A DNA stretch of 64,000 nt. Origin: Williamsia maris. GTDB taxonomy: Bacteria > Actinomycetota > Actinomycetes > Mycobacteriales > Mycobacteriaceae. Numbering within the stretch: the first letter of the stretch is position 1; every line of letters starts with the position of its first letter. Below, one piece after another: positions 2,027 to 51,037 of this stretch. Under the pieces are notes generated by a model. It did no database searches. It saw only the letters and a list, made by a program, of their open reading frames with translations, and had not been told where the DNA came from. The translations under genes were made by a program, and so were the position numbers. Location: assembly GCF_024171815.1 (NCBI RefSeq), contig NZ_JAMTCJ010000002.1, positions 1,178,001 through 1,242,000 on the forward strand. Reading direction: 5' to 3'.

Positions 2027-3742
2027 ATGACACCCGAACCCATGAACACTCCCGACGGACCGAAGGCGGGCCCGCCCCGTCCCGCGCCGCAGCCGCCCCG
2101 CCCTCCTGTGCGCCCGGGGCCGCCTCCCGGCCCGGCCCCCACGGGGATCTCGCCTCGGATCGGCACGCCGTTGTCGCCGTCCGCGACCCGCGTGATGCTG
2201 CTCGGTGCCGGTGAGCTCGGCAAGGAGGTGGTGATCGCGTTCCAGCGTCTGGGCGTCGAGGTCATCGCCGTCGATCGGTACCACAACGCGCCGGGCCATC
2301 AGGTCGCCCATCACGGCTTCGTCATGGACATGACCGATCCCGACGCGCTGCTCGGACTGATCGAGGACCAGCGCCCCGACTACGTCGTCCCGGAGATCGA
2401 GGCGATTGCCACCAGCGCACTGGTCGAGGCCGAGCGTCGCGGCATCACCGAGGTCATCCCCACCGCGCGGGCGACGTCGTTGACGATGAACCGCGAGGGG
2501 ATCCGCCGTCTGGCCGACGAACAGCTCGGCCTGCCGACGTCGGCGTACGCGTTCGCCGACTCACCCGAGCAGCTGGCCTCGGCCGCCGAGCGGGTCGGGT
2601 ACCCGTGCCTGGTGAAGCCGACGATGTCGTCGTCGGGCAAGGGGCAGTCGATGCTCCGCGGCCCCGAGGATCTCGACGCGGCGTGGCAGACCGCCGCATC
2701 CGGCGCGCGGGTGTCCGGCGGGCGGGTCATCGTCGAGGGTTTCGTCGACTTCGACTACGAGATAACACTTCTGACCGTGCGTGCGGTCGATCCGGCGACG
2801 GGCCGACTCACGACGCACTTCTGCGCGCCCATCGGGCACCGACAGGAACGTGGCGACTACGTCGAGAGCTGGCAGCCGCAGGCGATGAGCGCGGCCGCCC
2901 ACGGTGCGGCGATGTCGATCGCCGCTCGGATCGCGACCGCTCTGGGTGACGGAAAGCTCGGTGGCCGCGGCGTTTTCGGCGTCGAGATGTTCGTCAAGGG
3001 TGACGACGTCTACTTCTCCGAGGTCAGCCCGCGTCCACACGACACCGGTCTGGTCACCCTGGCGACGCAGCGACTCTCCGAGTTCGAGATGCACGCGCGT
3101 GCCATTCTCGGGCTGCCCGTCGACGTCACCCTGGCCAGCCCCGGAGCGTCGGCTGTCATCTACGGCGGTCGCGACGAACAGGGGATCGCGTTCGAGAACG
3201 TCGCTGCGGCACTGACGATTCCGGAGACCGACATCCGTCTGTTCGGCAAGCCGGAGAGCTACCAGCGACGTCGCATGGGCGTGGTCGTGGCCACGGCCGA
3301 CGACGTCAACGGCGCCCGTCGTCGCGCCACCGACGCGGCCGCCCTGGTGCGCCCGATCAGCGGTGTGCGTCCCCCGGCCCCGTCCGCACCGCCGGTGTCG
3401 GCGACGGCGACGACCACCGCGACCCATCGGCCGCCCCCGCCCGCACAGCCGCCCGCCCCGGCCACCGACCGGATCTCGGTCGAGATGATCGCCCGGCGGG
3501 CCCAGGCCGGTGACCCGCCCCGTGTCGATCCTCCCCGTCCCGATCCCGCCCGGTCCGATGCTGACGGCACGTCCGACGCCGCCGACGCACCAGTCGAACG
3601 GACGGACCGTCCCGCCGATCGTGCCGATCAGCCGACCGAGCGCTCCGAGCTGCCCCGGTGGGACGACGACGAGGACGCCGCGACCGAACCGACCGACACC
3701 GACGAGGACATCTCGTCGGGTCGCATCAGCGTGGAGAAGTAG
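2027..3742 (+). CDS. purT: formate-dependent GAR transformylase PurT with long disordered tail
   Basis: Phosphoribosylglycinamide formyltransferase 2, the ATP- and formate-dependent route for the third step of de novo purine synthesis. The N-terminal preATP-grasp fold starts near residue 47 ([20 protein letters not shown]). ATP-grasp features follow ([15 protein letters not shown], then [24 protein letters not shown]). PurT is usually about 390-400 residues; this protein has 571. The surplus is a Pro-rich N-terminal leader of about 45 residues and a Pro/Asp/Arg-rich tail of about 130 residues that looks disordered and contains two related peptides (TDRISVEMI and SGRISVEK). Start could be 2027 or the ATG at 2042. 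The DUF456 gene follows 3 bp later, so the two probably share a transcript. Confidence 0.92.
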
Positions 3743-3745
3743 CCT

Positions 3746-4225
3746 GTGTCGGCGGTCGGTGAGCTGCTGATCGCCCTGGTGATCCTGATCGGGCTGGTGG
3801 GGACGATCGTCCCGATGCTGCCCGGCCCGTCGTTGGTGCTGGCCGCCATCGCCATCTGGGCGATCTTCGTCGGTGGGTGGGCGTGGGCGGTCGTCGTCGG
3901 CGCTGCCGTGCTCATCGTCGGCGCCGCGGTGCTGAAGTATCTCGTCGCCGGCCGGTCGATGAAGCGGTCGGGAATCTCGAACCGGACGGTCCTCATCGGT
4001 GGACTGGTGGGCATCGTCGGATTCTTCGTCATCCCGGTGATCGGTCTGCCGATCGGGTTCCTGGCGGGTGCGTTCGTCGCCGAGTGGGCCCGCGATCAGG
4101 ACGTGCGGGCCGGGTGGAGGGGTGCGCTCGCGGCGATGCGGGCCGCCGGGGTGGCCATCCTCATCGAGCTGACGGCGTCACTCTTCGCCGCCGCCGGATG
4201 GCTCACCGGCGCGATAGCCCTCTGA
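3746..4225 (+). CDS. DUF456 membrane protein
   Basis: A 159-residue inner-membrane protein of the DUF456 family, with four to five hydrophobic segments. The typical sequence LVGTIVPMLPGPSLVLAAIAIWA lies in the first 45 residues, and a Gly-rich segment (IGGLVGIVGFFVIPVIGLPIGFLAGAF) follows the cytoplasmic loop KYLVAGRSMKRSG. Starts with GTG, 3 bp after the purT stop. No catalytic motif is visible and function is unknown. Convergent with the siderophore transporter operon across repeat array A. Confidence 0.75.
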   Translation: MSAVGELLIALVILIGLVGTIVPMLPGPSLVLAAIAIWAIFVGGWAWAVVVGAAVLIVGAAVLKYLVAGRSMKRSGISNRTVLIGGLVGIVGFFVIPVIGLPIGFLAGAFVAEWARDQDVRAGWRGALAAMRAAGVAILIELTASLFAAAGWLTGAIAL

Positions 4226-4441
4226 CGCCACGGCGCCAGTTGGGCACGTACGCCCATCACTTGGGCACGTAAACACGTCGACTGGGCGGATACGGACAAC
4301 TCTGACCACCGCGACCGCCGGATGAACGGGTGCAGGTGCCCAACTGGCGGTGTTACGTGCCCAACTGGCGTGTTTACGTGCCCCAACTGACGGTGTTAGG
4401 TGCCCAACTGGCGTGTTCACGTGCCCAACTGGCGGGTGGGG
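4226..4441. repeat. intergenic repeat array A (TTACGTGCCCAACTGGCG family)
   Basis: Non-coding gap between two convergent genes, filled with short repeats. Inverted-orientation copies (GCCAGTTGGGCACGTA) sit at 4235-4250 and 4261-4272. Five copies in the other orientation (ACGTGCCCAACTGGCG and variants) sit at 4336-4349, 4354-4370, 4374-4392, 4398-4413 and 4419-4434, about 21 bp apart. The two orientations are complementary, so a transcript from either side could fold into a large stem. The same family recurs at 16.1 kb. A role as bidirectional terminator or REP-like element is inference. Confidence 0.85.
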
Positions 4442-5266
4442 TCAGCGACCGGATCGGCCGACCGGGACGATCAGCGGACCACCCGACACCGGGTCGGTGA
4501 GCACCATCGACTGCAGACCGAACGCGGCGTCGAGCAACTCGGGCGTGATGACGTCGCGCGGGGCGCCCTCGCGGATGATGGCCCCGTCGCGCATGACCAC
4601 CAGTGAATCGCTGTAGCGCGCAGCCAGGTTCAGGTCGTGCAGCACCATCACGACCGTCTTGCCGTGCTCGGCGCTGAGGTCGTTGACGAGGTCGAGCACG
4701 TCGACGGCGTGAGCGAGGTCGAGGAACGTCGTCGGCTCGTCGAGCATCACCAGATCGGTCTCCTGGGCCAGGGTCAACGCGATCCACACGCGCTGACGCT
4801 GACCGCCCGACAGCGAGTCGACCGCACGGTCGGCCAACTCGGTGGTCGACGTCAGATCCAGTGCGTGCGCGACCGCCTTCTCGTCGTCGCGCGACCACTG
4901 CCGATACCAGGACTGATGCGGGTGGCGTCCGCGGGAGACGAGGTCGATGACCGTGAGACCCTGCGGCGCAACGGGATTCTGCGGCAACAACCCCAACGTC
5001 CTGGCGACGTCTTTGGACTTGCGGGAGGCTATGTCGGCGCCGTCGAGGATGACTGTCCCGGCGCGCGGGGTCAGCAGACGGCCCAGGGTGCGCAACAGCG
5101 TCGACTTCCCGCAGCCGTTCGGCCCGATGACGGTGGTGACCTGGCCGGTGGGGATGGTGACGTCGAGGTCGGTGATCACCGGGTCCGCGGCGTAGCCGAC
5201 GGTCAGTCCCGACGCAGAGAGACGGTCGGCCGGTGCCGACGTGTCGTGCGTGTCGACGGTGTTCAT
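4442..5266 (-). CDS. iron-siderophore ABC transporter ATP-binding protein
   Basis: A 274-residue ATPase of the FecE/FepC type that powers ferric-siderophore uptake. Visible motifs are Walker A GPNGCGKST, Q-loop LLPQNP, signature LSGGQRQRVWIA, Walker B DLVMLDEPT and switch HDLN. The ATG at 5266 overlaps the upstream permease stop by 4 bp (ATGA), which sets the start although the frame stays open further upstream. Last gene of a three-gene operon with two permeases. No substrate-binding protein lies in this operon; one is encoded at 12.1-13.1 kb. Ends at repeat array A. Confidence 0.93.
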   Translation of the reverse strand: MNTVDTHDTSAPADRLSASGLTVGYAADPVITDLDVTIPTGQVTTVIGPNGCGKSTLLRTLGRLLTPRAGTVILDGADIASRKSKDVARTLGLLPQNPVAPQGLTVIDLVSRGRHPHQSWYRQWSRDDEKAVAHALDLTSTTELADRAVDSLSGGQRQRVWIALTLAQETDLVMLDEPTTFLDLAHAVDVLDLVNDLSAEHGKTVVMVLHDLNLAARYSDSLVVMRDGAIIREGAPRDVITPELLDAAFGLQSMVLTDPVSGGPLIVPVGRSGR

Positions 5267-6369
5267 GCGGACGCCTTTCGCGATACGGCGATCATCAGAT
5301 AGATCAGGAACGGCCCGCCGACGCCCGCGGTCACGACACCGACGGGGATGCCGTCGGGCAGCCAGTGCCTGCACAGCAGATCGCCACCGACGACGAGGAC
5401 CGCGCCGATCAGCCCGCTCACCACCGGCGGCGGGGTCGCCACGCGGGCGATGCGTAGCGCGATCTGCGGGGCGAGCAGGGCGACGAACGCGATCGGTCCG
5501 GCGGCCGAGACGCAGATCGCCGCCATCGCGACCGCGACGACGAGACCGAGGGCCGAGACGGCGTCGGCGCGGACGCCGAGCCCCTGGGCCATGTCCCGGC
5601 CCAGGCTCAGCGTCGACATCGCGCGGTTGACGAACCCCAACACGACCGCGGCGACGGCCAGCGTGATCGCCACCGGCACCACCGACGACCACGACGCGTC
5701 CGAGACCGACCCGACCAGCCAGCGCTGGGCCCGACCGACGTCGTTGATCGCCGCGCGGGTCAGCGCGTATCCCGTCAGGGCCTGGAACACCCAGGTCAGG
5801 GCGACTCCGATCAGCACTAGCCGGAACGCGTCGATCCCGCCCCGCCAGGCCAGCAGGTACATCAGACCGGCGGCCAGGGTGCCGCCGACGAGCGCGGCGG
5901 CCGGGATGCCGATGTCGGCGAACCACGATCCCCAGCTCGAGCCGAACGCGATGGCGGCGACCGCGGCGGTGCTGGCGCCCGCGGTGATGCCGAGGACGTC
6001 GGGCGTCGCCAGCGGGTTGCGGGCGATGGTCTGCGTGAGCGCGCCGGAGGCGCCGAATCCGATGCCGACGAGGACGGAGATCAGCGCGCGGGGCAGCGCG
6101 ACGTCGAAGACGACGACGTTCTCCACCCGGGTGCCGCCGCCGAGCAGGATGCGGCCGACGTCGAGGGGGCTGAGCGGGTAGTCACCGGTGCCGACGCTCA
6201 ACGCGAACAACACCAGCGCGACGACGGCGGTCACCAGACCGACCGCGACCACCCGCGGTCGCACGATGAACGACGCCGACCCCACCCGGAGCACGCTGCG
6301 CCGCAACGACGATCGCACCTCCTCGACCGGCGGTGCGGCCGAGGTGCGGTCGGCCGCGGTCGCGCTCAC
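5263..6369 (-). CDS. FecCD-family siderophore permease
   Basis: A 368-residue polytopic permease of the BtuC/FecCD family. A hydrophilic leader of about 35 residues is followed by roughly ten hydrophobic segments. Family features are LPRALISVLVGIGFGASGALTQ, RNPLATPDVLGITAGAS and, near the end, CVSAAGPIAFVALLAPQIALR, the region contacting the ATPase. It starts at a GTG overlapping the stop of the upstream permease (GTGA) and ends overlapping the ATPase start. With the neighbouring permease it should form the heterodimeric channel. Confidence 0.93.
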   Translation of the reverse strand: MSATAADRTSAAPPVEEVRSSLRRSVLRVGSASFIVRPRVVAVGLVTAVVALVLFALSVGTGDYPLSPLDVGRILLGGGTRVENVVVFDVALPRALISVLVGIGFGASGALTQTIARNPLATPDVLGITAGASTAAVAAIAFGSSWGSWFADIGIPAAALVGGTLAAGLMYLLAWRGGIDAFRLVLIGVALTWVFQALTGYALTRAAINDVGRAQRWLVGSVSDASWSSVVPVAITLAVAAVVLGFVNRAMSTLSLGRDMAQGLGVRADAVSALGLVVAVAMAAICVSAAGPIAFVALLAPQIALRIARVATPPPVVSGLIGAVLVVGGDLLCRHWLPDGIPVGVVTAGVGGPFLIYLMIAVSRKASA

Positions 6370-7394
6370 ACCGCCACCAGACGTCGAGCCCGCACGAGCT
6401 TGATCAGGAACGGCGCCCCCAGCACGGCCAACACCACGCCCGCCTGGATCTCACCGGGACGCGCGATGACGCGGCCGATGACGTCGGAGAGGAGCAGCAT
6501 GATGGCGCCGAGCAGCGCCGAGTACGGGACCACCCAGCGGTAGTCGGGGCCGACGATGAACCGCGCCAGGTGCGGGACGACGAGGCCGAGGAACACGATC
6601 GGGCCGCATGCCGCGGTGGCCGCGCCGGCCAGCAGGGTGATCGCGGCGATGCCGACGACGCGCACCACCGCGATCCGCGATCCGAGCGAGCGGCTCATGT
6701 CGTCGCCGAGGCTGAGCACGTTGAGGAAGAAGCCGCTGCCGAGAGCGAGCACCAGGCCGATCGCGATGAAGGGGGCCGCCGCGTAGAGGACGTCGGTGCC
6801 GCGCCCGGTCACCGACCCGACGTTCCAGAACCGCCACGCGTCCAGCGACGCGGTGTCGGTGAGGACGATCGCCGAGGTGATCGCCAGCAACATCGCCGAC
6901 AGGCCGGTGCCCGCGAGGACCAAGGTGATCGGCGACGAGCCGCGGGTCATCGCGGCGGCACCGAACACCAGACCGGCGGCCACGACCGCCCCGAGCAGTC
7001 CGAAGCCCATGTACTCGATGGGGGTGCTGATGCCGAGCAGGTAGACGCCCGCGACCACCGCGCAGGCCGCGCCTGCGTTGACGCCGAGCAGTCCGGGGTC
7101 GGCCAGGGGGTTGCGGGTGTGCGCCTGCGTGAGGGCTCCGGCGGCGCCGATGGCCAGCCCGACGACCACGCCGAGTGCGGTCCGCGGGATGCGCAGGTCG
7201 CGCACGATGCCGACGACGTCACGGGCGGCGTCCTGTGGGGCGAACAACGCGTCCCACACCTCGCCGAGGCCCAGTGCGCGTGACCCGATCGCGATGGACG
7301 CGACCACGAGAGCGAGCAGTACGACCACGAGTGCGACGACACCGGTGGTGCGTCGGCGGGGGACCGCGGAGGACAATCGACTGCTCGCTTTCAC
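6366..7394 (-). CDS. FecCD-family siderophore permease, first gene of operon
   Basis: A 342-residue FecCD permease paralogous to the downstream gene, with the same landmarks: IPRTALGVVVGLAIGAAGALTQ, RNPLADPGLLGVNAGA and CGPIVFLGLVVPHLARFIVGPD. It has about ten membrane segments. GTG start at 7394. First gene of the operon: an IdeR-like iron box lies just upstream, and the next gene (small secreted protein) is divergent. Substrate is probably a ferric siderophore; which one is not evident. Confidence 0.92.
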   Translation of the reverse strand: MKASSRLSSAVPRRRTTGVVALVVVLLALVVASIAIGSRALGLGEVWDALFAPQDAARDVVGIVRDLRIPRTALGVVVGLAIGAAGALTQAHTRNPLADPGLLGVNAGAACAVVAGVYLLGISTPIEYMGFGLLGAVVAAGLVFGAAAMTRGSSPITLVLAGTGLSAMLLAITSAIVLTDTASLDAWRFWNVGSVTGRGTDVLYAAAPFIAIGLVLALGSGFFLNVLSLGDDMSRSLGSRIAVVRVVGIAAITLLAGAATAACGPIVFLGLVVPHLARFIVGPDYRWVVPYSALLGAIMLLLSDVIGRVIARPGEIQAGVVLAVLGAPFLIKLVRARRLVAV

Positions 7395-7408
7395 ACCCCG
7401 TTCGGGGT

Positions 7409-7427
7409 CTCGGCAAGGGTACCCTAA
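7409..7427 (-). promoter_or_regulatory. candidate IdeR/DmdR iron box
   Basis: On the minus strand TTAGGGTACCCTTGCC (7412-7427) resembles the IdeR iron box TTAGGTTAGGCTAACCTAA at about 11 of 17 positions, with a palindromic GGGTACCC core. It lies 15-33 bp upstream of the first permease start, where repression by iron-loaded IdeR would act. The match is partial, so this is a candidate only. Confidence 0.45.
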
Positions 7428-7581
7428 GTAACAATTTGGCGATCATTGGTAACCGATTTGCTCGATTCACCGATGCAATCGGTAGCCGTGCATTGCACTT
7501 GAGACGTAGCGGATTGGCCGTGACGTCGACAACGGGCGGCTGATTCGACCAACGACGGCTGATGGAGAAGGTGGGACACCC

Positions 7582-7974
7582 ATGAAGATGAACGTGCACA
7601 ACCTCAAGCGTGTGGCGGCTGCGACCCTGGCGACGGCCGCGGTCGGCACCGCCGGGATCATCGGCGCGGCCCCGGCCAACGCCGTGGCTCCGCCGGAGCT
7701 GCGCCTGACCGGTGTGGTCTATTGCGACAGGACCGAATTCGTGGGCACCCTGGTCCGCTCGATGACCGCAACCAACGTCGGCGGAGTGACGATGCGCAAC
7801 ACGACGTTGCAGGAGTTCAACGGCCAGCGTCGCTTCTCCGCCGCGCTCAAGCCGGGCGAGCGACTCAACATCACCACCAAGCAGCGCGGCTGCTTCCCGT
7901 CGTCGATCAGCGGTTACACGATCTCCGACATCCGCGAGAACGTCTTCGACAACATCGGCTACTACCGCAACTGA
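7582..7974 (+). CDS. small secreted protein of unknown function
   Basis: A 130-residue protein with a clear Sec signal peptide: MKMNVHNLKR, a hydrophobic Ala/Gly stretch and a probable cleavage after APANA near residue 34. The mature part is about 95 residues with two cysteines (VVYCDR, QRGCFP) that could form a disulfide. It has a beta-rich look similar to other small exported actinobacterial proteins. Preceded by GGAGAAGG, a good ribosome binding site. Family not recognised. A strong hairpin terminator follows at 8014. Confidence 0.7.
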   Translation: MKMNVHNLKRVAAATLATAAVGTAGIIGAAPANAVAPPELRLTGVVYCDRTEFVGTLVRSMTATNVGGVTMRNTTLQEFNGQRRFSAALKPGERLNITTKQRGCFPSSISGYTISDIRENVFDNIGYYRN

Positions 7975-8305
7975 CGCTCCTCAGCCCAGACACGAACGGC
8001 CCTGACACGAACGGCGGCGATCCCCGAGAGGGGGTCGCCGCTGTTGCTTTGCGTCGCACCTGCGCGGTCGGTCTCTGGAGCGATGTGACGACAATGACTC
8101 GGGTTTGTACAGCAGGACTCGCCCGCTGCTGAGTTGTGGTCGCCTGTCAGCTCTCCCCTGGACGGCGCAGTTTAAATCGTTGAGTGAGGTCGGACAAACC
8201 TGCTCATCGCCGGCGCCCGCTCGCCCTTACCTCGCGATACCGCTAGTTCTATACGCCGCGCCAACGATGCGCGGTGTCCTCCGCCAGGAGCGGCTAGGTG
8301 CAAAG
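7975..8305. other. non-coding stretch at the left edge of the AT-rich cassette
   Basis: 331 bp without a convincing gene. It starts with two copies of GACACGAACGGC (7989-8013) and the terminator at 8014-8041. Base composition shifts from about 8100 onward toward AT-richer sequence (for example AGTTTAAATCGTTG near 8170). The frame of the ATPase gene stays open back to 8105, but its upstream part lacks family similarity. The promoter of the cassette should lie here; I see no clear -35/-10 pair. Confidence 0.5.
8014..8041 (+). terminator. hairpin terminator with GNRA loop
   Basis: A 12-bp stem: GCGGCGATCCCC (8014-8025) pairs with GGGGGTCGCCGC (8030-8041), with one T-G wobble and loop GAGA. It is followed by CTGTTGCTTTG, a weak T-rich tail. 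Lies 40 bp past the secreted-protein stop. Confidence 0.72.
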
Positions 8306-9649
8306 ATGTATCTCGTGACTGACACGATCTCGCTGAAACTGCTGCGCGCAACGGTGACTGGTGTGCTAGACAGTTATGACCACAGTATTGACTTTAATGT
8401 GAATGATGATTACGTCATAATTTACGGACCTAATGGGGTCGGAAAGACCAAGACTCTCGAGATAATTCACGCGTTGTGCAGAATTGACGGACGAGCCCTC
8501 TCCGGTCTGCCGTTCGAATATGCCGAGGTTTTGTGTTCTGAGGGATTTCGAATAGCCGCGGAGAATGGGCGCGGATCCGAAAAGGGCCTAGTGTTCCGGT
8601 TGTACAGAGACGCAGAGCTGTTACGCGCATGGGAGTACGAGGACTCTGAGGGAATCGACTGGTTAGTCGAAAACACCTCTTGGCGACCGCTCGACAACGG
8701 TCTGTGGGAAGATCGACGCGACGGAGAAATCGTTGCGTATGGCGACCTCGAGATGCAGTTCGGATCTGAGCTGAGCGGGACAGATGCCAGTCAGCTTCCT
8801 GAGGAAATGCAAGACTTTAAGGAACGTATTCCCGTCTATCTGATTGAGACCCAACGTCTCAGAACGGTGAGTTTCGCGAACCGAAGACTGCGCAAAAGCG
8901 TAAATCTAAGTCGGCTCCGCCGGGCCGCCGCAAATCCATCGCGAATCAACGCGCAAGCGGATGTAATGAGAACGCTTATTAATCAAGCGCAGACCGAGCA
9001 CTCACGCATTACGCAGCAACTCGACAGAACGTTCCCTAATAGGGTCCTAGAGGCCTCCCCGGGGAAGCCGGAGCTTGTGGACGAGGTAATTCGCGAAAAG
9101 TACGATCGGCAGAATGAGTTCCGATCTAGACTCGGCCGGGTCGTTTCGGTACCACTAGAGAACGAGTTGTCGCTTCCGCAGAAGTCCCTTGTTGGCTGGC
9201 AGCTAAGACTGCTCGACCTGTATCTGAGTGATGCTGACCAAAAACTCGCCCCATTCGAAGGACTCCTCAGGCGTATTGAGCTTTTGGAGGAGATAATCAA
9301 TCATCGATTGCTCCGGAAACGGGTGCAAGTCAACGCGGCGGATGGATTGGTCGTGCTAGATCAGACAAACGAAAGACTGATAGCGCTGGATGCGCTGTCG
9401 TCCGGAGAGCAGCATGAGACGATCCTCATGTTCGACCTGTTGTTCACAGTGCCAGAGGGTGCGCTCGTCCTCATCGACGAGCCGGAGATATCACTTCACG
9501 TCGGCTGGCAAGTAGCGTTTATGCCGGATATTCGGAGGATCGCATCTATTCGTGGTTTGCGGTTTATCGTGGCCACCCATTCTCCACAGATAATCAACGG
9601 CGAGTGGGATAAAGCTGTGCGTCTTGGTCCTCCGGAATCTGAATTCTAA
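8306..9649 (+). CDS. ABC/AAA-type ATPase, probable defence protein (PARIS AriA-like)
   Basis: A 447-residue ATPase of the AAA15/AAA21 SMC-like type. Walker A is GPNGVGKT (about residues 41-48). A long middle region with helical stretches (RRAAANPSRINAQADVMRTL) follows, then signature-like LSSGEQ (364), Walker B LVLIDEPE (388-393) and H-loop ATHSPQ (about 425). The gene is followed by a DUF4435/TOPRIM gene with overlap TAATG. That pairing is the architecture of PARIS (AriA ATPase plus AriB DUF4435) and relates to OLD-type ATPase-TOPRIM systems. A defence role is inference from architecture and from the AT-richer base use unlike all neighbours, which suggests recent transfer. ATG 8306 is chosen over the open frame back to 8105 because it precedes the ATPase fold; GTG 8315 is an alternative. 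Confidence 0.82.
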   Translation: MYLVTDTISLKLLRATVTGVLDSYDHSIDFNVNDDYVIIYGPNGVGKTKTLEIIHALCRIDGRALSGLPFEYAEVLCSEGFRIAAENGRGSEKGLVFRLYRDAELLRAWEYEDSEGIDWLVENTSWRPLDNGLWEDRRDGEIVAYGDLEMQFGSELSGTDASQLPEEMQDFKERIPVYLIETQRLRTVSFANRRLRKSVNLSRLRRAAANPSRINAQADVMRTLINQAQTEHSRITQQLDRTFPNRVLEASPGKPELVDEVIREKYDRQNEFRSRLGRVVSVPLENELSLPQKSLVGWQLRLLDLYLSDADQKLAPFEGLLRRIELLEEIINHRLLRKRVQVNAADGLVVLDQTNERLIALDALSSGEQHETILMFDLLFTVPEGALVLIDEPEISLHVGWQVAFMPDIRRIASIRGLRFIVATHSPQIINGEWDKAVRLGPPESEF

Positions 9650-10512
9650 TGCTAGAGTACCTGAATTCGAACACCCTTTTCAATACCATTGCTATGCTTC
9701 GCCCCGAGAGGCGTGGCTCATTTATCGTTGTTGAAGGCAGTGACGACCAATATGTTTTCAGACAACACGCCGATGAAACTGTGACCATTCTAGCGGGTCT
9801 CGGGGGCAAGTCTGACCTTCTGGTTGCCTCTTCCAAGGTCGATGAGCATGCGATTTCAAGTGTGTACTTTTTCGTTGATCGTGACTACGACAATTATTTG
9901 TCAACGACAATTCCATACGGACGTACAGTCGTAGCTTCGGATGGTCACGATTTAGTTATGGATCTTGTCTTGTCGGATCAAACCATTGTTCGTAAGGTAA
10001 TCGAATCGCATGCTAGAGGGCAGGTAGCTGAGGGCGGTGCCGGTATAGTTGCCAGCGTTATAATTGAGAAAGCGCTAGCGTTGGCGTTCTCGGTGGGTGT
10101 CCTTAGATTAATCAGCGTAGAAAATAACTGGGGACTGAATCTGAGGAACTACCCGTTTGGCAAACTCTCGTCCGATACTCCCGACGATTCCGAGCTAGTT
10201 CAGCTTGCATTAAACTGGTCCGCCCCGTCTGGGCTCGAAGGTACTATACGCAGCGAGCACGGAAGGTTTGTCGAGACTTATAAGGACCAGAAATTATCGC
10301 TTGTAGGTGATCACGACTTCTTCGCCGCAGCGGCTCAAGTGATGCGAGGTTTCGGATGTAAGAGCGTCAGCGGAGAAAATTTGACGGCGAGCTTTCTTGC
10401 TGCCTTTTCTTGCAATACTTTCACTCGATCTGAATGGTTCGACACGCTGGCGTCCCTTTCAAGTACCGATTCGGGTGCTACATGCTTCGGATGCCCATGC
10501 GAGGCGGCTTGA
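9649..10512 (+). CDS. DUF4435 (TOPRIM-fold) protein, probable effector of the ATPase (PARIS AriB-like)
   Basis: A 287-residue protein of the DUF4435 type. The two acidic clusters expected of a TOPRIM metal site are present: FIVVEGSDDQYVF with E29, and SVYFFVDRDYDNYL with D77 and D79. The next conserved element is DGHDLVMDLVLS. Its start shares one base with the ATPase stop (TAATG), so the two are translationally coupled. In PARIS the DUF4435 subunit is the toxic nuclease released when the ATPase senses phage proteins; that activity here is inferred. The C-terminus has a Cys cluster (CFGCPCEAA), possibly a metal site. Codon use is AT-rich throughout, unlike fprA downstream. Confidence 0.8.
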   Translation: MLEYLNSNTLFNTIAMLRPERRGSFIVVEGSDDQYVFRQHADETVTILAGLGGKSDLLVASSKVDEHAISSVYFFVDRDYDNYLSTTIPYGRTVVASDGHDLVMDLVLSDQTIVRKVIESHARGQVAEGGAGIVASVIIEKALALAFSVGVLRLISVENNWGLNLRNYPFGKLSSDTPDDSELVQLALNWSAPSGLEGTIRSEHGRFVETYKDQKLSLVGDHDFFAAAAQVMRGFGCKSVSGENLTASFLAAFSCNTFTRSEWFDTLASLSSTDSGATCFGCPCEAA

Positions 10513-10565
10513 ATGGGCAATAAATCGGTTTCGCTGAAGTTTTCAACCTAGGGAGCAACAGTCAC

Positions 10566-10586
10566 GAACGCGGGTGGATCCCGTTC
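10566..10586. terminator. possible bidirectional hairpin
   Basis: GAAC-(GC bulge)-GGG pairs with CCC-GTTC around loop TGGAT, between the convergent DUF4435 and fprA genes. The stem is only seven pairs with a bulge and no T tract, so this is weak. Confidence 0.3.
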
Positions 10587-10618
10587 GCGACAGTCGAGAC
10601 ATCCTGGAAGGGGCTAGT

Positions 10619-12007
10619 TCAGGCCTTGGTGACCTTGTCGGGTTCGGCGGCGGCGAGCATGGCGTCGCGTTCGACGACCTTGACGCGTTCGCGGCCCTCG
10701 GCCTCGCCGAGTGCGCGTTCGTGTTCGTCGAGTCGGTACCAGCCGTCCCAGGTGGTGAACGGGATGTTGCGTGATTCGAGTAGTTCGATGACCGCGGATT
10801 CCTCGGGCGTGGCGGGGGCGTTGAGGTTGTCGGCTTTCATGTCGTCGAGGATGCATTCGACGGTCTCGTTCGCGTCGCCCTTGGTGTGCCCGATCAGGCC
10901 GATGGGGCCGCGTTTGACCCAGCCGGTCGTGTAGAGCCCGACGAGGTGTTCACCGTTGTCGAAGATGCGTCCGGCCTCGTTGGGGATGACGCCGGCCTGC
11001 TCGTCGAACGGGATCTGCGGGAGGTTGTCCGAGAGGTACCCGACGGCGCGGTAGACCGCGCCGAGATTCCAGTCGGTCATCTTGCCGGTCGGCTTGACGT
11101 TGCCGGTCCCGTCGAGCTGGGTGCGCTCGGTACGCAAGCCGACGACCGCGCCGTCGGCGCCCAAAATCTCCACCGGGGATTCGAAGAAGTGCAGGAACAG
11201 CTTGTGCGGGCGGTCGCCGGGCTCGCGAATGGCGTAGTTCTCGATGATCGTGGCGACCTGGTCAGTGATCTTCGACCCACGCCGCGCGACCGCGGAGCCC
11301 TCGTCGTAGTCGATGTCCTCGGGGTCGACGATGACCTCGATGGTCGGGGAGTGGTCGAGTTCTTTGAGTTCGAGCGGGGTGAACTTGGCCTGGGCGGGTC
11401 CGCGGCGTCCGAAGACGTGGACCTCGACGGCCTTGTTGTTACGCAACCCGTCGTAGACGTTCGGCGGGATCTCGGTGGGCAGGAGTTCCTCGCCGGTCTT
11501 GGCCAACACGCGCGCGACATCCAATGCGACGTTGCCGACACCGATGACCGCGACCTTTTCGGCCTCGAGCGGCCAGGTGCGGGGGAAATCGGGGTGACCG
11601 TCGTACCAGGCGACGAACTGCGCGGCACCGTACGAGCCGTCGAGGTCGATGCCGGGGATGTCCATCACCCGGTCATCAGTCGCACCGGTCGAGAAGATCA
11701 CCGCGTCGTACAGCGTGCGGAAGTCATCCAGGGTGATGTCGGTGCCGTAGTCGACGTTGCCCAACAGGCGGACCTGCGGCTTGTCGAGGACCTTGTGCAG
11801 GGCGGTGATGATGCCCTTGATCCGCGGATGATCCGGGGCGACGCCGTACCGGATCAGCCCGAACGGTGCGGGCATCCGCTCGTAGAGATCGATGCTCACC
11901 CCGCGCTCCTTGGCGGTGTCCGACTTCATCAGCGCGTCCGCGGCATAGATACCGGCGGGGCCGGCACCGACGATGGCGACTCGCAGCGGGCGGTTCTCAG
12001 CGCTCAT
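10619..12007 (-). CDS. fprA: NADPH-ferredoxin reductase FprA
   Basis: A 462-residue FAD- and NADP-dependent reductase of the adrenodoxin-reductase type, passing electrons from NADPH to ferredoxins for P450s and other enzymes. The N-terminal FAD site is VAIVGAGPAGIYAADAL. The NADP-binding dinucleotide fold follows near residue 150 (VAVIGVGNVALDVARVL). The C-terminal ATGWVKRGPIGLIGHTKGDA motif is typical of FprA. Length matches the family. ATG at 12007. It lies downstream of the siderophore-binding lipoprotein on the same strand with a 127-bp gap that shows no obvious regulatory site, so it may be separately transcribed. Confidence 0.93.
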   Translation of the reverse strand: MSAENRPLRVAIVGAGPAGIYAADALMKSDTAKERGVSIDLYERMPAPFGLIRYGVAPDHPRIKGIITALHKVLDKPQVRLLGNVDYGTDITLDDFRTLYDAVIFSTGATDDRVMDIPGIDLDGSYGAAQFVAWYDGHPDFPRTWPLEAEKVAVIGVGNVALDVARVLAKTGEELLPTEIPPNVYDGLRNNKAVEVHVFGRRGPAQAKFTPLELKELDHSPTIEVIVDPEDIDYDEGSAVARRGSKITDQVATIIENYAIREPGDRPHKLFLHFFESPVEILGADGAVVGLRTERTQLDGTGNVKPTGKMTDWNLGAVYRAVGYLSDNLPQIPFDEQAGVIPNEAGRIFDNGEHLVGLYTTGWVKRGPIGLIGHTKGDANETVECILDDMKADNLNAPATPEESAVIELLESRNIPFTTWDGWYRLDEHERALGEAEGRERVKVVERDAMLAAAEPDKVTKA

Positions 12008-16084: not shown

Positions 16085-16238
16085 CCGCCAGTAAACCCGC
16101 CAGTTGGGCACGTAACTCCGCCAGTTGGGCACCTTCACTCGACTGGGCGTTTGCGGACCGATTGGTGGACTCAACTGCCCAACCAAACGATTTACGTGCC
16201 CAACTGATGGACTTACGTGCCTAACTGGGGTGAGGGGG
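16085..16238. repeat. intergenic repeat array B (same family as array A)
   Basis: Between the convergent dedA and isochorismate synthase genes. Copies in one orientation are GCCAGTTGGGCACGTAA (16099-16115) and GCCAGTTGGGCACCTT (16120-16135). Copies in the other are TTTACGTGCCCAACTG (16191-16206) and TTACGTGCCTAACTGG (16213-16228), with a degenerate CAACTGCCCAACC (16172-16184). As in array A, the orientation switches midway, so arms nearest each gene are complementary. Confidence 0.82.
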
Positions 16239-17339
16239 TCAGGTGAGCAGGTCCGGGCAGCCCAGGGCCCGCAGCACCGTGGCGAACTTCGCCGACGTCT
16301 CGGCCAACTCCTCCGCCGGATCCGACTGCTCGACGATGCCGCCGCCGGACCAGGCGCGGATCGTGCGCCGGTCCTCGAACACCTCGGCGCATCGGATGCT
16401 GACCATCCACTCGCCGTCACCGTCGGTGTCGCACCATCCGACCGCACCCGCGTAGAAGCCGCGCGGCTCCTCGGTCTCGAGGATCATCGTGCGCGCGGCC
16501 ACGGTGGGGGTGCCGCAGATCGCCGGGGTGGGGTGCAGCTGCATCGCCAGATCGAGCGACGTCGCGTCCGGATCACGCAGCACCCCCTCGATCGGCGTCG
16601 CGAGATGCCACATCTCGCCGGTGCTCAGCAGGATCGGCTCCTCGGGCACCGACAACGTCGTGCACAGCGGGGCCAGCACCGACGTCAGGTAGGCGACCAC
16701 GATCTGGTGTTCGTAGTGGTCCTTGGCCGACGCGAGCAGTGCCGCCGCCCGCGCCGCGTCGACGTCGGGATCGTTCGAGCGGGGGGCCGACCCGGCGTAC
16801 GGCCGGCACGTCACACGGTCACCGGTCTTGCGTACCAACGACTCCGGGCTCGCGCCCACCAGGGTGTGGCCGACGAAGCCGGTCCCGGCCGGCGTCAGGT
16901 CGACCCGAAATCCGTTGTGCTCGTGGTTGCCTGCGGCCAGTGCGGCGACCACCGCGTCGATGTCGACGTCGGTGCCCGCGAGCATCTCGATCGACCGTGC
17001 GAGCACCACCTTGTCGGCCTCGCCGGCGGTGATGCGGTCGATGACGGCCGCGACCCGCGCGCGGTGGACCTCGGGAGTGGGAACCGAGGCGGTCAGCGTC
17101 ACCGGCACCGACAGCGGCTCGGCGCCGGACTCGGACGGGCCGCCGTGCTCGAGCGCGCCGACGGCAACGAGCGCGTCGGGGGCGGCCGCGTCGAACGACA
17201 ACGCGCCGACCACCGCGATCCGACGACCCGTCGCCCGTCCCGCGGCGATGGCGTCGACGGCATCCGACGCCGAGGAGAACTGCGCCACGGGCACACCCGC
17301 GCGGACCGATCCGTGCGGTCGGGACAGGTGGAAGGACAC
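16239..17339 (-). CDS. isochorismate synthase
   Basis: A 366-residue chorismate-utilising enzyme of the EntC/DhbC/MenF group, making isochorismate for menaquinone or siderophore synthesis. The N-terminal part is poorly conserved; from about residue 110 (DRITAGEADKVVLARSIEM) the chorismate-binding fold is clear. Landmarks are VGASPESLVRKTGDRVTCRPYAGSAPR, LHPTPAICGTPT and RGFYAGAVGWCDTDGDGEWMVSIR. GTG 17339 is a likely start but has no strong ribosome binding site; a GTG about 40 bp further upstream is possible. Close to entC of mycobacteria. Divergent from the SAM-IV-controlled operon. Confidence 0.85.
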   Translation of the reverse strand: MSFHLSRPHGSVRAGVPVAQFSSASDAVDAIAAGRATGRRIAVVGALSFDAAAPDALVAVGALEHGGPSESGAEPLSVPVTLTASVPTPEVHRARVAAVIDRITAGEADKVVLARSIEMLAGTDVDIDAVVAALAAGNHEHNGFRVDLTPAGTGFVGHTLVGASPESLVRKTGDRVTCRPYAGSAPRSNDPDVDAARAAALLASAKDHYEHQIVVAYLTSVLAPLCTTLSVPEEPILLSTGEMWHLATPIEGVLRDPDATSLDLAMQLHPTPAICGTPTVAARTMILETEEPRGFYAGAVGWCDTDGDGEWMVSIRCAEVFEDRRTIRAWSGGGIVEQSDPAEELAETSAKFATVLRALGCPDLLT

Positions 17340-32622: not shown

Positions 32623-35103
32623 ATGAATCGAAAGACTGTTTTCCGCAATTTGGCCATTGTCGCCGTGATCGTGCTCGCGATCTGGGGTTTCACGGTTCTG
32701 CGTGGCGGTGACCGCGAGTACAAGAGTGTCGACACCTCGGTCGCGCTGACCCAGCTGAACACCCGCAACGCTTCCGAGGTGCAGATCGACGATCGCGAAC
32801 AGGCGATCCGCATCACGTTGAAGGACGAGGTCGACGGCACGAACAAGATCACCGCGAAGTACCCGGCGCGGTCGAGTGAGTTCGTCTTCGACAGCGTCAC
32901 CAAGTCGGGCGCGAAGTATCAGACCAACGTCACGCAGGAGTCCGTCCTGTGGCAGATGCTGATCTTCATCCTGCCGATGATCCTGCTGTTCGGACTCTTC
33001 TTCTTCGTGATGAGCCGCATGCAGGGTGGTGGCAAGGGCGGGATCATGGGCTTCGGCAAGTCGAAGGCCAAGCAGCTCACCAAGGACCACCCCAAGACCA
33101 CGTTCTCCGACGTCGCCGGTGCCGACGAGGCGGTCGAGGAGCTCTACGAGATCAAGGACTTCCTGCAGAACCCCGCGCGCTACCAGGCGCTCGGCGCCAA
33201 GATCCCGCGCGGTGTCCTGCTCTACGGCCCTCCCGGCACCGGTAAGACGCTGCTCGCGCGAGCCGTCGCCGGTGAGGCGGGCGTGCCGTTCTTCACGATC
33301 TCCGGTTCGGACTTCGTCGAGATGTTCGTCGGTGTCGGTGCGTCACGAGTGCGTGACCTGTTCGAGCAGGCCAAGGCCAACAGCCCCTGCATCATCTTCG
33401 TCGACGAGATCGACGCGGTCGGACGCCAGCGTGGTGCCGGCCTCGGCGGCGGGCACGACGAGCGCGAGCAGACCCTCAACCAGCTGCTGGTGGAGATGGA
33501 CGGCTTCGGTGAGCGTTCCGGCGTGATCCTGATCGCCGCGACCAACCGTCCCGACATCCTCGACCCGGCGCTGCTGCGTCCCGGTCGCTTCGACCGGCAG
33601 ATCCCGGTGGGCAACCCCGACATCGCCGGACGCAAGGCGATCCTCAAGGTGCACGCGGCGGGCAAGCCGATCGACGCCGACGCCGACCTCGACGGTCTGG
33701 CCAAGCGCACCCCGGGCATGTCCGGTGCCGACCTGGCCAACGTCATCAACGAGTCGGCGCTGCTGGCCGCACGCGAGAACCGCACGACGATCACCGCCGA
33801 ACTGCTCGAGGAGTCGGTCGACCGTGTCGTGGGCGGACCGCGCCGCAAGAGCCGCATCATCAGCGAGCAGGAGAAGAAGATCGTGGCCTACCACGAGGGT
33901 GGACACACCCTCGCCGCGTGGGCGATGCCCGATCTCGACCCGATCTACAAGGTCACCATCCTCGCGCGCGGTCGCACCGGCGGTCACGCCCTCGCCGTGC
34001 CGGAGCAGGACAAGGACCTGATGACGCGGTCGGAGATGATCGCTCGTCTGGTGATGGCGATGGGTGGCCGTGCCGCCGAGGAGCTCGTGTTCCACGAGCC
34101 GACCACGGGTGCGTCCTCCGACATCGACCAGGCGACCAAGATCGCCCGCGCGATGGTCACCGAGTACGGCATGAGCGCCAAGCTCGGTGCCGTCCACTAC
34201 GGCCAGGAGCAGGGCGACCCGTTCCTGGGCCGTTCGATGGGCGCGCAGGCGTCGTACTCCACCGAGGTCGCAGCCGAGATCGACGACGAGGTCCGTCGCC
34301 TCATCGAGGCCGCGCACACCGAGGCGTGGGCGATCCTCAACGAGTACCGCGACACCCTCGACGACCTCGCGACCCAGCTTCTCGAGCGCGAGACGCTGAC
34401 CCGCAAGGATCTCGAGGTCATCTTCTCGGGCGTGGAGAAGCGTCCGCGCATCACCACCTTCGACGAGTTCGGCGACCGCACGCCCAGCGACAAGCCCCCG
34501 GTGAAGACCCCGGGTGAGCTGGCCATCGAGCGCGGCGAGCCGTGGCCCCCAGAGCCGGCCCCGCGCCTGGTGAAGGAGACCGTCGGTGCCGGGTCGTCGC
34601 AGCCGAACCCGTACGGACCCGGCGGCTACAACGGCGGTCAGCCCAACGGCTACGGCCAGCCCAACGGCTACGGCCAGAACGGCCAGGGACAGCCCAACGG
34701 CTACGGCCAGAACGGCCAGGGGTCGAACGGGTACGGCCAGAACGGTTACGGCCCGGGGTCGAACGGCTACGGCCAGAACGGCTACGGCCAGAACGGTTAC
34801 GGTCCCGACAACCAGAACGGTTACGGCCCGAACGGCCACAACCAGCCCGGCCAGGGACAGGGATATCCCGGCTACCCGCAGGGCGGATCGGCTCCCGGCT
34901 ACCAGGGCCCGGGCTACGGCAATCCGGGTCACCAGCCCACGCCGCCGTCTGTCCCGCACGATCAGAACCCCGACGCCCCCGGTGCGAACCGTCCGGCGGG
35001 ACCCAACGGCGGGACCCGTCCCGACTACGGCGCCCCCGACGGCTGGTCGGCGCCGGGGTGGCCCCCGCGTGACGGGAACGGGTCGGGTCAGCCGCCCCGC
35101 TGA
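32623..35103 (+). CDS. ftsH: ATP-dependent zinc metalloprotease FtsH with Asn-Gly-Tyr-rich tail
   Basis: An 826-residue membrane AAA+ protease for quality control of membrane proteins. TM1 is near residues 7-24 and TM2 near 108-128, with a periplasmic domain between. Walker A GPPGTGKT lies at about residue 202, Walker B IIFVDEID at about 257, and the second region of homology [18 protein letters not shown] after 308. The zinc site is H424-E-G-G-H428, with the third ligand expected in the ASSDIDQA region. From about residue 654 a low-complexity tail of roughly 170 residues follows, dominated by NGYGQ repeats and Pro/Gly. Actinobacterial FtsH often has a tail, but this repeat content is unusual. 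First gene of the folate cluster. Confidence 0.96.
34627..34836 (+). repeat. tandem NGYGQ-coding repeats in ftsH
   Basis: Repeated coding units based on AACGGCTACGGCCAG, about fourteen degenerate copies coding [10 protein letters not shown] and NGYGP variants. They lie within the tail of ftsH and keep frame throughout. Confidence 0.85.
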
Positions 35104-49348: not shown

Positions 49349-50503
49349 ATGAGCACACCGCAGGCCTACATCGTCGATTCCCTGCGCACCCCGGTGGGCA
49401 AGCGCAACGGATCCCTGGCGAAGGTGAACCCGATCGATCTCGGTGCCCACGTCATGAAGGCGGTCGTCGAGCGCACCGGGATCGCCCCGGACGTCGTCGA
49501 CGACGTGGTGTTCGGCTGCGTCGACACCATCGGGCCCCAGGCGGGCAACGTCGCCCGCTCGTCCTGGCTGGCCGCAGGCCTGCCGCTGGCCGTCCCGGCG
49601 ACCACCGTCGACCGGCAGTGCGGATCGTCGCAGCAGGCAATCCATTTCGCCGCGCAGGGCGTGATGAGCGGGACCCAGGACGTGGTGATCGCCGGTGGGT
49701 TGCAGAACATGAGCGCCATCCCCATCTCGGCGGCGATGATCGCCGGGGCGCAGTACGGTTTCGGCAACCCGTTCCACGACTCCACCGGGTGGCAGGAGCG
49801 TTTCGGCGACGCCGAGATCTCGCAGTTTCGCGGCGCCGGGATGATGGCCGAGAAGTGGGGGATCAGCCGCGAGGACATGGAGGCGTGGGCGCTGCAGTCG
49901 CATCAGCGGGCGCGTACGGCCATCGCCGAGGGGCGTTTCGACAACGAGCTCGTCGCGCTCGGCGACTGCGTCGTCGACGAATGCCCCCGCGAGACGTCGT
50001 TGGAGAAGATGGCGTCGCTGCCGGTGCTCGAGGAGGGGTCGAGGTTGACCGCCGCCGTCGCATCGCAGATCTGTGACGGTGCCGCGGCCACGCTGGTGGT
50101 GTCGGAGGCGGCGTTGGAACGGTACGGCCTCACCCCGCGCGCGCGGATCCACCATCTCTCGGTGCGAGGCGACGATCCGATCATGATGCTGTCGGCGCCG
50201 ATCCCGGCCACCGCCTACGCGCTCGAGAAGACCGGGCTGTCGATCGACGACATCGACGTCGTCGAGATCAACGAGGCGTTCGCGCCCGTGGTCCTCGCGT
50301 GGCTGAAGGAGACCGGAGCCGACCCGGCCCGGGTCAACCCCAACGGCGGCGGCATCGCGCTGGGCCACCCGCTGGGTGCGACCGGTGCGAAGCTGTTCGC
50401 GACGATGCTCAACGAACTCGAACGCACCGGCGGGCGCTACGGGCTGCAGACGATGTGTGAGGGCGGCGGGACCGCCAACGTCACCATCATCGAGCGGCTC
50501 TGA
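49349..50503 (+). CDS. fadA6: acetyl-CoA acetyltransferase FadA6
   Basis: A 384-residue thiolase of the same pathway. The nucleophilic cysteine lies in VDRQCGSSQQAIHFAAQGVM; the C-terminal motifs are NPNGGGIALGHPLGATGAK with catalytic His, and ETMCEGGG-like MCEGGGTANVTIIE. Strong similarity to Rv3556c FadA6, which thiolyses the opened C/D-ring acyl-CoA. Ends at repeat array C. Confidence 0.92.
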   Translation: MSTPQAYIVDSLRTPVGKRNGSLAKVNPIDLGAHVMKAVVERTGIAPDVVDDVVFGCVDTIGPQAGNVARSSWLAAGLPLAVPATTVDRQCGSSQQAIHFAAQGVMSGTQDVVIAGGLQNMSAIPISAAMIAGAQYGFGNPFHDSTGWQERFGDAEISQFRGAGMMAEKWGISREDMEAWALQSHQRARTAIAEGRFDNELVALGDCVVDECPRETSLEKMASLPVLEEGSRLTAAVASQICDGAAATLVVSEAALERYGLTPRARIHHLSVRGDDPIMMLSAPIPATAYALEKTGLSIDDIDVVEINEAFAPVVLAWLKETGADPARVNPNGGGIALGHPLGATGAKLFATMLNELERTGGRYGLQTMCEGGGTANVTIIERL

Positions 50504-50506
50504 TCC

Positions 50507-50650
50507 GCCGACCGTGCCGTAACAACGCGCCCACCGTGCCGTTATGGCCCGCCGACCGTGCCGTAACAACGCGCCCACCGTGCCGTTATGGCCCGCCGAG
50601 CGTGCCGTAACCGCCCACCGACCGTGCCGTAACAACCCGCCGACCGTGCG
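50507..50650. repeat. intergenic repeat array C (CCGTGCCGTWAC family)
   Basis: Direct repeats between convergent fadA6 and a membrane-protein gene. A 44-bp unit built from GACCGTGCCGTAACAACG and CCCACCGTGCCGTTATGG is repeated at 50507-50550 and 50551-50594. Degenerate third and fourth pieces run to 50650. Core CGTGCCGTAA or CGTGCCGTTA occurs six times, about 21-22 bp apart, the same period as array A but a different sequence. Confidence 0.88.
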
Positions 50651-51037
50651 TCAGTAGGCGACGGTCTGGGCGATGGCGGTGACGACGAGGCCGGTCGACA
50701 ATGACACGAACGACAGGCCTGAGATCGCCTTGTAGACGATCATCTTCTGGATGTCGGCGTTGAAGCCGAGGGGGATGAACAGCAGCGGGTTCACGATGCC
50801 GCCGATGACGACGAGGACCAGCGCCCAGTCGGGGGTGTCCGACGCGACCGCCCCGACCGCGACCATGAGGATGCCCATGATGATCCAGTCGAGATGGGTC
50901 TGGAACACGCGTCGTTGATGGATCAGGCCGATCGCACGTAGTGCGTCCGGCTTCTCGACCACGAGCGTGACCGCGAACCCCGACACCGCCCCGACCGCGA
51001 TCGACCACAACCCGACCAGGATGAGTACGTCGGTCAT
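50651..51037 (-). CDS. four-helix membrane protein of unknown function
   Basis: A 128-residue protein with four hydrophobic segments (VLILVGLWSIAVGAVSGFAVTLVV; WIIMGILMVAVGAVA; WALVLVVIGGIVNPLLFIPL; LSFVSLSTGLVVTAIAQ). A conserved-looking HQRRVFQTHLDWIIMG links the first and second. Not recognised to family with confidence. It begins at ATG 51037; longer forms overlapping the aldehyde dehydrogenase promoter are not supported. Confidence 0.62.
   Translation of the reverse strand: MTDVLILVGLWSIAVGAVSGFAVTLVVEKPDALRAIGLIHQRRVFQTHLDWIIMGILMVAVGAVASDTPDWALVLVVIGGIVNPLLFIPLGFNADIQKMIVYKAISGLSFVSLSTGLVVTAIAQTVAY

Follow-up and report, generated by a model that had tools for sequence, protein, structure and literature searches.

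The solved structures of the PARIS defence system (PDB 8ux9, 8v45-8v49), which we take to derive from Escherichia coli B185, are those of a two-gene system in which ariA, for an ABC ATPase, precedes ariB, for a TOPRIM nuclease. According to PMC11455837 and PMC12409363, the AriA hexamer of E. coli holds three copies of AriB, and Ocr or other phage proteins release AriB, which dimerises. PMC12409363 also describes a two-metal TOPRIM site with which AriB cuts tRNA-Lys and tRNA-Thr in the anticodon stem between positions 40 and 41, reports that cleavage fragments are absent in the AriB mutant E26A, and assigns to K60/K64 the holding of the anticodon loop. Here we compare with this system a gene pair in a 64,000-nucleotide stretch of the Williamsia maris genome (contig NZ_JAMTCJ010000002.1, positions 1,178,001 to 1,242,000 of the forward strand; hereafter the window, whose first letter is position 1). 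A preliminary description of the window, made from its letters, had read the pair as a PARIS-like ATPase and DUF4435 cassette. Our analyses indicate that it is a real, intact, acquired and diverged member of PARIS.

The preliminary description had placed two overlapping genes (TAATG), for an ABC-type ATPase and a DUF4435/TOPRIM protein, at 8306..10512; the coordinates are right and both open reading frames (ORFs) are intact (Table 1). The ATPase can be assigned to AriA because full-length comparison favours AriA over PtuA. In a phmmer search against solved structures, AriA came first (1.6e-13), followed by the retron Ec83 ATPase (1.6e-5) and PtuA (3.1e-5), and a family profile of 58 AriA rows matched solved AriA at 7.1e-39 over positions 3-435 of 441, as against 3.2e-18 for PtuA. 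A profile from which the window's protein and its two closest relatives had been left out still matched the window's ATPase over its full length, with 347.7 bits and an E-value of 6.9e-103 (database size set to 100,000, here and for the corresponding AriB profile). The protein also scores above the ATPase cut-offs used by Rousset et al., with 61.9 bits for AAA_21 (cut-off 27) and 36.9 bits for AAA_15 (cut-off 32.1 in Pfam and 32 in PMC9122126). Among 132 loci found with AriA (80 in genomes, the best 80 of 99, and 52 on viral contigs, some of them near-copies), an AriB-like gene is adjacent in 66 of 66 scoring at least 174 bits and in 1 of 66 scoring below 139 bits, the scores coming from a nine-row AriA profile that includes the window's own protein. 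Sequence comparison thus identifies the window's ATPase as an orthologue of AriA and sets it apart from other OLD-type ATPases.

The second protein is linked to PARIS by its fold and by profiles. The best structural match of its predicted model is AriB itself, a TOPRIM nuclease, as the preliminary description had anticipated for this protein; the match stands 6 Z units above OLD and is 13% identical in the structure alignment. Up to E 1 no Pfam family other than DUF4435 matches it, and an AriB profile free of the three related sequences recovers it over its full length at 4.2e-36. The motifs named beforehand (GPNGVGKT, LSSGEQ, LIDEPE and ATHSPQ in the ATPase; E29, D77 and D79 in its partner) are all present and conserved family-wide. 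Starting sets of 65 AriB and 65 AriA sequences were assembled, for which L049 was too short in both cases and L023 in the case of AriB. The 57-row AriB alignment (A4) excludes L116, L117, L121, L123, L130 and L131, which are near-copies or low, and the low-scoring L048, L052 and L075; the 58-row AriA alignment (A5) leaves out eight loci, namely the same list minus L075, which was too short. Across the AriA rows N43, G44, G46, K47, L364, S365, G367, E368, D391, E392, P393 and A423-S426 are invariant, and across the AriB rows E29, D33, D77, D79 and D223. From its place in the motif, E29 would be the counterpart of E. coli AriB E26. With regard to K60/K64, lysine is shared by 41 of the 57 AriB rows at K54 and by 8 at K63, and solved AriB is not alignable to these rows by profile.

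An ABC ATPase with a TOPRIM partner is a combination shared with other defences, and the pair could be a split OLD/Gabija-like system, an AbiL-like system or a retron type I effector, with DNA instead of tRNA as its target. We consider this very unlikely. OLD nucleases and Gabija GajA have a related TOPRIM fold, but ATPase and TOPRIM are fused in one protein, whereas the window has two separate genes. Septu and retron PtuA share the ATPase motifs, although their full-length match is weaker, as given above, and the Septu partner is the HNH protein PtuB (PMC12409363), in contrast to the AriB/TOPRIM fold of the window's partner. Genes for a reverse transcriptase, a helicase or an HNH protein are absent from the insert that carries the pair, every other ORF of at least 60 aa in it overlapping ariA, ariB or a flank.

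Several observations weigh against placing the pair in PARIS. PADLOC, which the preliminary description had proposed as a check, bears out the effector, for which AriB is the only family matched up to E 10, but not the ATPase: its PtuA model (6.4e-24) is level with AriA (2.2e-23), both matching mainly over the C-terminal part, so that PADLOC alone leaves the ATPase undecided and the full-length comparison decides. The DUF4435 label given to the second protein was a correct reading, yet the score (19.8 bits, E 7e-4) lies under the curated and published cut-off of 27 bits. Neither the AriB family profile, even at E 10, nor the window's AriB alone finds the solved AriB chains by sequence, and only the fold links them. 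The AriB of G672, one of the two closest relatives, has no PADLOC match at E 0.01, and that of the other, G235, matches PADLOC AriB at 5.4e-7. The CFxCPC tail and DHD motif described below set the protein apart from other family members, and its target or its control could have changed with them. Finally, no type I restriction subunit HsdR (PF04313) was detected in the genome (9 of 14 known genomes in the control), so that a second line of defence behind restriction is not an obvious logic here; according to PMC9122126, however, PARIS does not depend on a type I system.

With respect to DUF4435, the same PARIS survey (PMC9122126) states that two-gene systems needed more than 27 bits, a threshold that is a published detection rule and not a biological feature. 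Since this cut-off is strict, kinship with PARIS rests on fold and profiles and not on the DUF4435 rule. Among the 57 AriB rows, all of them next to AriA homologues, DUF4435 is matched at E 1e-3 in 34 and absent in 23, and PADLOC AriB is matched at the same E-value in 49. Surveys by the 27-bit rule undercount PARIS because the effector of this branch falls under the cut-off, and given that 34 of 57 effectors match DUF4435, the 5.2% of genomes with PARIS (PMC9122126) is likely a lower bound. The window's pair thus extends PARIS to a high-GC actinobacterial branch with an effector under the published detection threshold.

Taken side by side, the window's pair and solved PARIS are alike in ariA-ariB order, full-length AriA homology, AriB fold, and the TOPRIM glutamate and DxD, which agrees with the PARIS (AriA/AriB) architecture proposed at the outset. 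They differ in the low AriB identity, the missing sequence-profile match and the sub-threshold DUF4435 score, as expected of the diverged relative suggested earlier, and also in the CFxCPC tail, the DHD motif, the high-GC actinobacterial host and the chromosomal site, whose insert lacks prophage or satellite genes. The pair has the parts that an E. coli-type sequence of events would need. AriA would assemble into a ring that holds AriB, a putative endonuclease with a two-metal TOPRIM site, in an inactive state. Binding of AriA by a phage protein, by analogy one that counters restriction or mimics DNA, would release AriB; the released nuclease would then form dimers and cleave tRNAs of the host, so that protein synthesis and phage multiplication would both cease in that cell. 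We are highly confident that the pair is kin to PARIS and shares its general mode of action, by analogy, whereas cleavage of tRNA as such by this AriB is a probable outcome of which we are distinctly less sure. The basis consists of intact genes, conserved ATPase and TOPRIM residues, the predicted AriB fold, constant pairing among full-length relatives, purifying selection, an empty site and sporadic distribution; ring assembly, trigger, release and tRNA cleavage are carried over from the E. coli system and would hold here by analogy.

The preliminary description had further supposed that the cassette is AT-richer than its neighbours and acquired. The G+C content (GC) is 0.531 for ariA and 0.497 for ariB, and GC at third codon positions (GC3) is 0.588 and 0.505, under the minima of 40 other ORFs in the window (mean GC 0.693, sd 0.027, minimum 0.621; mean GC3 0.876, sd 0.042, minimum 0.771). 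These ORFs were picked mechanically (at least 150 aa, high-GC-type codon-position GC pattern, non-overlapping), a choice that leans to high GC3, but a sliding 1-kb scan of the window, independent of that bias, agrees, with GC of 0.50-0.56 in segments starting at 8001-9501 and at least 0.61 in all segments outside the cassette. The flanks of the window's cassette are adjacent in the close relative G005 (L103), which makes the cassette an insertion measuring about 2.57 kb: the left blastn match stops at 8041 and the right one restarts at 10610, and the empty site of G005 measures 13 bp between blast matches or 22 bp by eye, from the terminator to the fprA stop. The low GC3, this empty site and the presence of ariB in one of eight genomes of the genus support acquisition, and we regard the cassette, on these sequence grounds, as horizontally acquired and chromosomal. 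Comparison of the locus with relatives thus gave a pair that is not conserved in all of them and whose GC is not normal.

The cassette lies behind a terminator-like hairpin of a small gene for a 130-aa protein (7582-7974; no Pfam match at E 1e-5), itself preceded by two FecCD permeases and an ABC ATPase; to the right come fprA, the name given to a gene resembling those of pyridine-nucleotide oxidoreductases, and then a gene for a periplasmic binding protein. These neighbours fit the earlier outline, which set the cassette between siderophore genes and fprA. All eight genomes of the genus have fprA, whose protein in G005 is 95% identical to the window's. The same two neighbours are kept in G001, G002, G004 and G007, with roughly 0.1-0.7 kb between matches; in G006 fprA is separated from the FecCD genes by different ones, and G003 has other genes to the left of fprA, showing that the junction varies among close relatives. 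In G003 (L102, about 1-7.0 kb) the fprA protein is 97% identical, and there is no blastn match to window positions 3001-10618.

The integrase-free nature of the cassette also stands, none being present among insert ORFs of at least 60 aa; since all of these other than the pair overlap ariA, ariB or a flank, the insert has no room for an integrase or transposase. Comparison of 7981-8330 with 10481-10640 gave three direct repeats of 8 bp and one inverted repeat of 9 bp, but no exact direct repeat of at least 9 bp. The missing integrase and border repeat, together with the occurrence of the pair in a single genome of the genus, might be taken as signs that the pair is what remains of a mobile element, decaying and no longer functional. 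Such decay is extremely unlikely, as both genes are intact, all active-site residues are kept, and purifying selection between the three related pairs has been strong, although such selection testifies to their history, not to the present state of the window's copy.

The distribution of the pair is sporadic. A search with the AriB protein found ariB in one genome of the genus out of eight; it occurs in 2 of 301 genomes sampled in the family, 2 of 59 genomes of the genus of G235, 3 of 397 sampled in the order (three-row profile) and 2 of 394 sampled in the class (two-row profile), these samples from genus to class overlapping and all including the window's own genome except that of the G235 genus. 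Single-protein AriB searches gave no relative in genome_contigs, plasmids or phages, nor did a two-row AriB profile in viral_contigs; AriB searches by sequence were too weak, and relatives were found via AriA, followed by reading of the neighbouring gene (for genomes, the best 80 of 99 matches). AriA also matched 22 plasmid and 2 phage records, and in 7 of 7 examined (6 plasmid, 1 phage) a protein of 262-297 aa lies beside the ATPase; four of these proteins carry the annotation DUF4435 and three are labelled hypothetical.

The closest pairs are those of G235 (AriA 70%, AriB 49% identical to the window's) and G672 (62% and 49%), both from the same other genus of the family. Among the three pairs protein identity is 62-70% for AriA and 49-52% for AriB, with fourfold sites at 0.18-0.30 identity. 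Because fourfold sites are saturated while protein identity persists, both genes have been under strong purifying selection, and with such sites near random, chance is excluded as a source of the protein identity. The G235 pair lies about 0.9 kb downstream of a transfer-messenger RNA (tmRNA) gene (tmRNA at 5436-5806 in L006, ariA at about 6676), and that of G672 between acyl-CoA-dehydrogenase-like and epimerase-like genes, named from their translations. By blastn (E 1e-2) the DNA similarity of the three cassettes does not reach beyond the two genes; together with the differing neighbours, this points to ariAB moving as a cassette of minimal size. A more distant ariAB in an order-level relative (L165, 163-1305 and 1492-3749) is next to a gene whose translation resembles a tyrosine recombinase, in contrast to the integrase-free cassette of the window.

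The three pairs form a group that we call mycobacterial-family, a tentative label of our own, based on kinship labels and gene content. On the AriA tree (65 rows, 12 named loci left out) they stand together at 100/100. The window's pair lies beside that of Microbacterium sp. SS28 (99/97) within an actinobacterial group (100/97) in which its closest rows are Microbacterium sp. SS28 (L011), Frigoribacterium (L012), Acidimicrobiia (L013) and Streptomyces sp. JHD 1 (L014). Like the window, all four have an adjacent AriB; their AriA is 37-38% identical to the window's in the best segment, and their AriB lacks the CFxCPC tail. This branch joins four other actinobacterial rows only at 87/56, a row from a proteobacterial metagenome-assembled genome (L058) stands at the base of that wider grouping (99/90), and the actinobacterial G354 pair is elsewhere, on a long branch. 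The window's pair thus appears to belong to a largely actinobacterial PARIS branch, "actinobacterial" not being clean on the AriA tree.

AriB of all three mycobacterial-family members ends in CFxCPC plus a few residues, whereas CxxCxC within the last 40 residues occurs in none of 72 other AriB sequences, near-copies included, and two further order-level relatives have an AriB without the tail. Column 221 of AriB is glycine in 55 of 57 rows, serine in one and aspartate in the window's row only; D221, giving DHD for GHD, is found in all three mycobacterial-family sequences. A four-cysteine zinc site formed by C255 and the tail was considered and rejected: C255 is kept in the three members, but cysteine occupies the column in 4 of 57 rows and lies nearby in tail-less relatives. 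We therefore call only the tail clade-specific, since cysteines at or near C255 occur outside the clade as well.

These traits bear on the possibility that the pair derives from PARIS but has an effector acting on a different RNA, or controlled differently, by metal or redox through its C-terminal cysteines; this overlaps and is compatible with a PARIS mode of action. The clade-only tail, the change of GHD to DHD beside an invariant aspartate and the 13% identity to solved AriB would fit such a variant, but AriA, the operon layout and, in AriB, the fold and catalytic residues do not depart from the family, and the tail falls in a terminal part of the model that is poorly predicted (mean predicted local distance difference test score, pLDDT, of 67 in the last block). 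We regard it as possible but unlikely. The more specific proposal of an actinobacterial PARIS branch partly missed by profiles, in which the mycobacterial-family tail and GHD change amount to a metal/redox switch or retargeting to a different tRNA or RNA, seems to us a quite unlikely one. The tail is nevertheless a concrete, testable difference between effectors. Among the literature matches listed, no paper deals by title with this branch or tail, and in the main text of a survey of the actinobacterial antiviral arsenal (PMC10482375) the only whole-word instance of "Paris" is in the funding paragraph.

Table 1. Coordinates of the cassette, its two genes and their motifs (window positions; a dot means no strand)
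Feature	Position	Strand	Evidence or remark
Inserted cassette, ~2.57 kb, AT-rich, absent at matching site in G005	8042..10609	.	blastn; outer limits approximate
ariA, ABC/OLD-type ATPase, 447 aa	8306..9649	+	translation, profile and structure-database searches
ariB, DUF4435/TOPRIM nuclease-like, 287 aa	9649..10512	+	overlaps ariA in TAATG
AriA Walker A, GPNGVGKT, residues 41-48	8426..8449	+	
AriA ABC signature, LSSGEQ, residues 364-369	9395..9412	+	
AriA Walker B, LVLIDEPE, residues 387-394 (IDEPE 390-394)	9464..9487	+	
AriA H-loop, ATHSPQ, residues 423-428	9572..9589	+	
AriB E29, TOPRIM glutamate	9733..9735	+	invariant, 57/57 AriB rows
AriB D77-x-D79, TOPRIM DxD	9877..9885	+	invariant, 57/57 AriB rows
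AriB D221-H222-D223 (DHD replacing family GHD)	10309..10317	+	D223 in 57/57 rows
AriB C-terminal CFxCPC tail (C279, C282, C284), clade-specific	10483..10500	+	

The start of ariA is uncertain. GTG 8315 may be the true start, as it has an in-frame counterpart in G235, unlike ATG 8306. A sigma-70 consensus scan gave 0 sites versus 1.6 expected in shuffles, and no Rfam family reached its gathering score in 7500-10700. Elsewhere in the window, intergenic tandem repeats with a 21-nt unit around GTGCCCAACTGGCGNGT occur at 4318-4445 and 16157-16241; the genome contains 20 exact copies of their 17-nt core, as against 0 of the reversed control sequence. Similar repeats lie in G002 between the small left gene and fprA, which is the ariAB site of the window. 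Tandem 22-nt repeats (CCGTGCCGTAACAACGCGCC and variants), of a unit unlike the 21-nt repeats, are present at 50488-50671 near the end of the ORF 49349-50503, and the ORF 32623-35103 has, close to its 3' end (34600-34870), repeats that encode NGYGQ-like runs.
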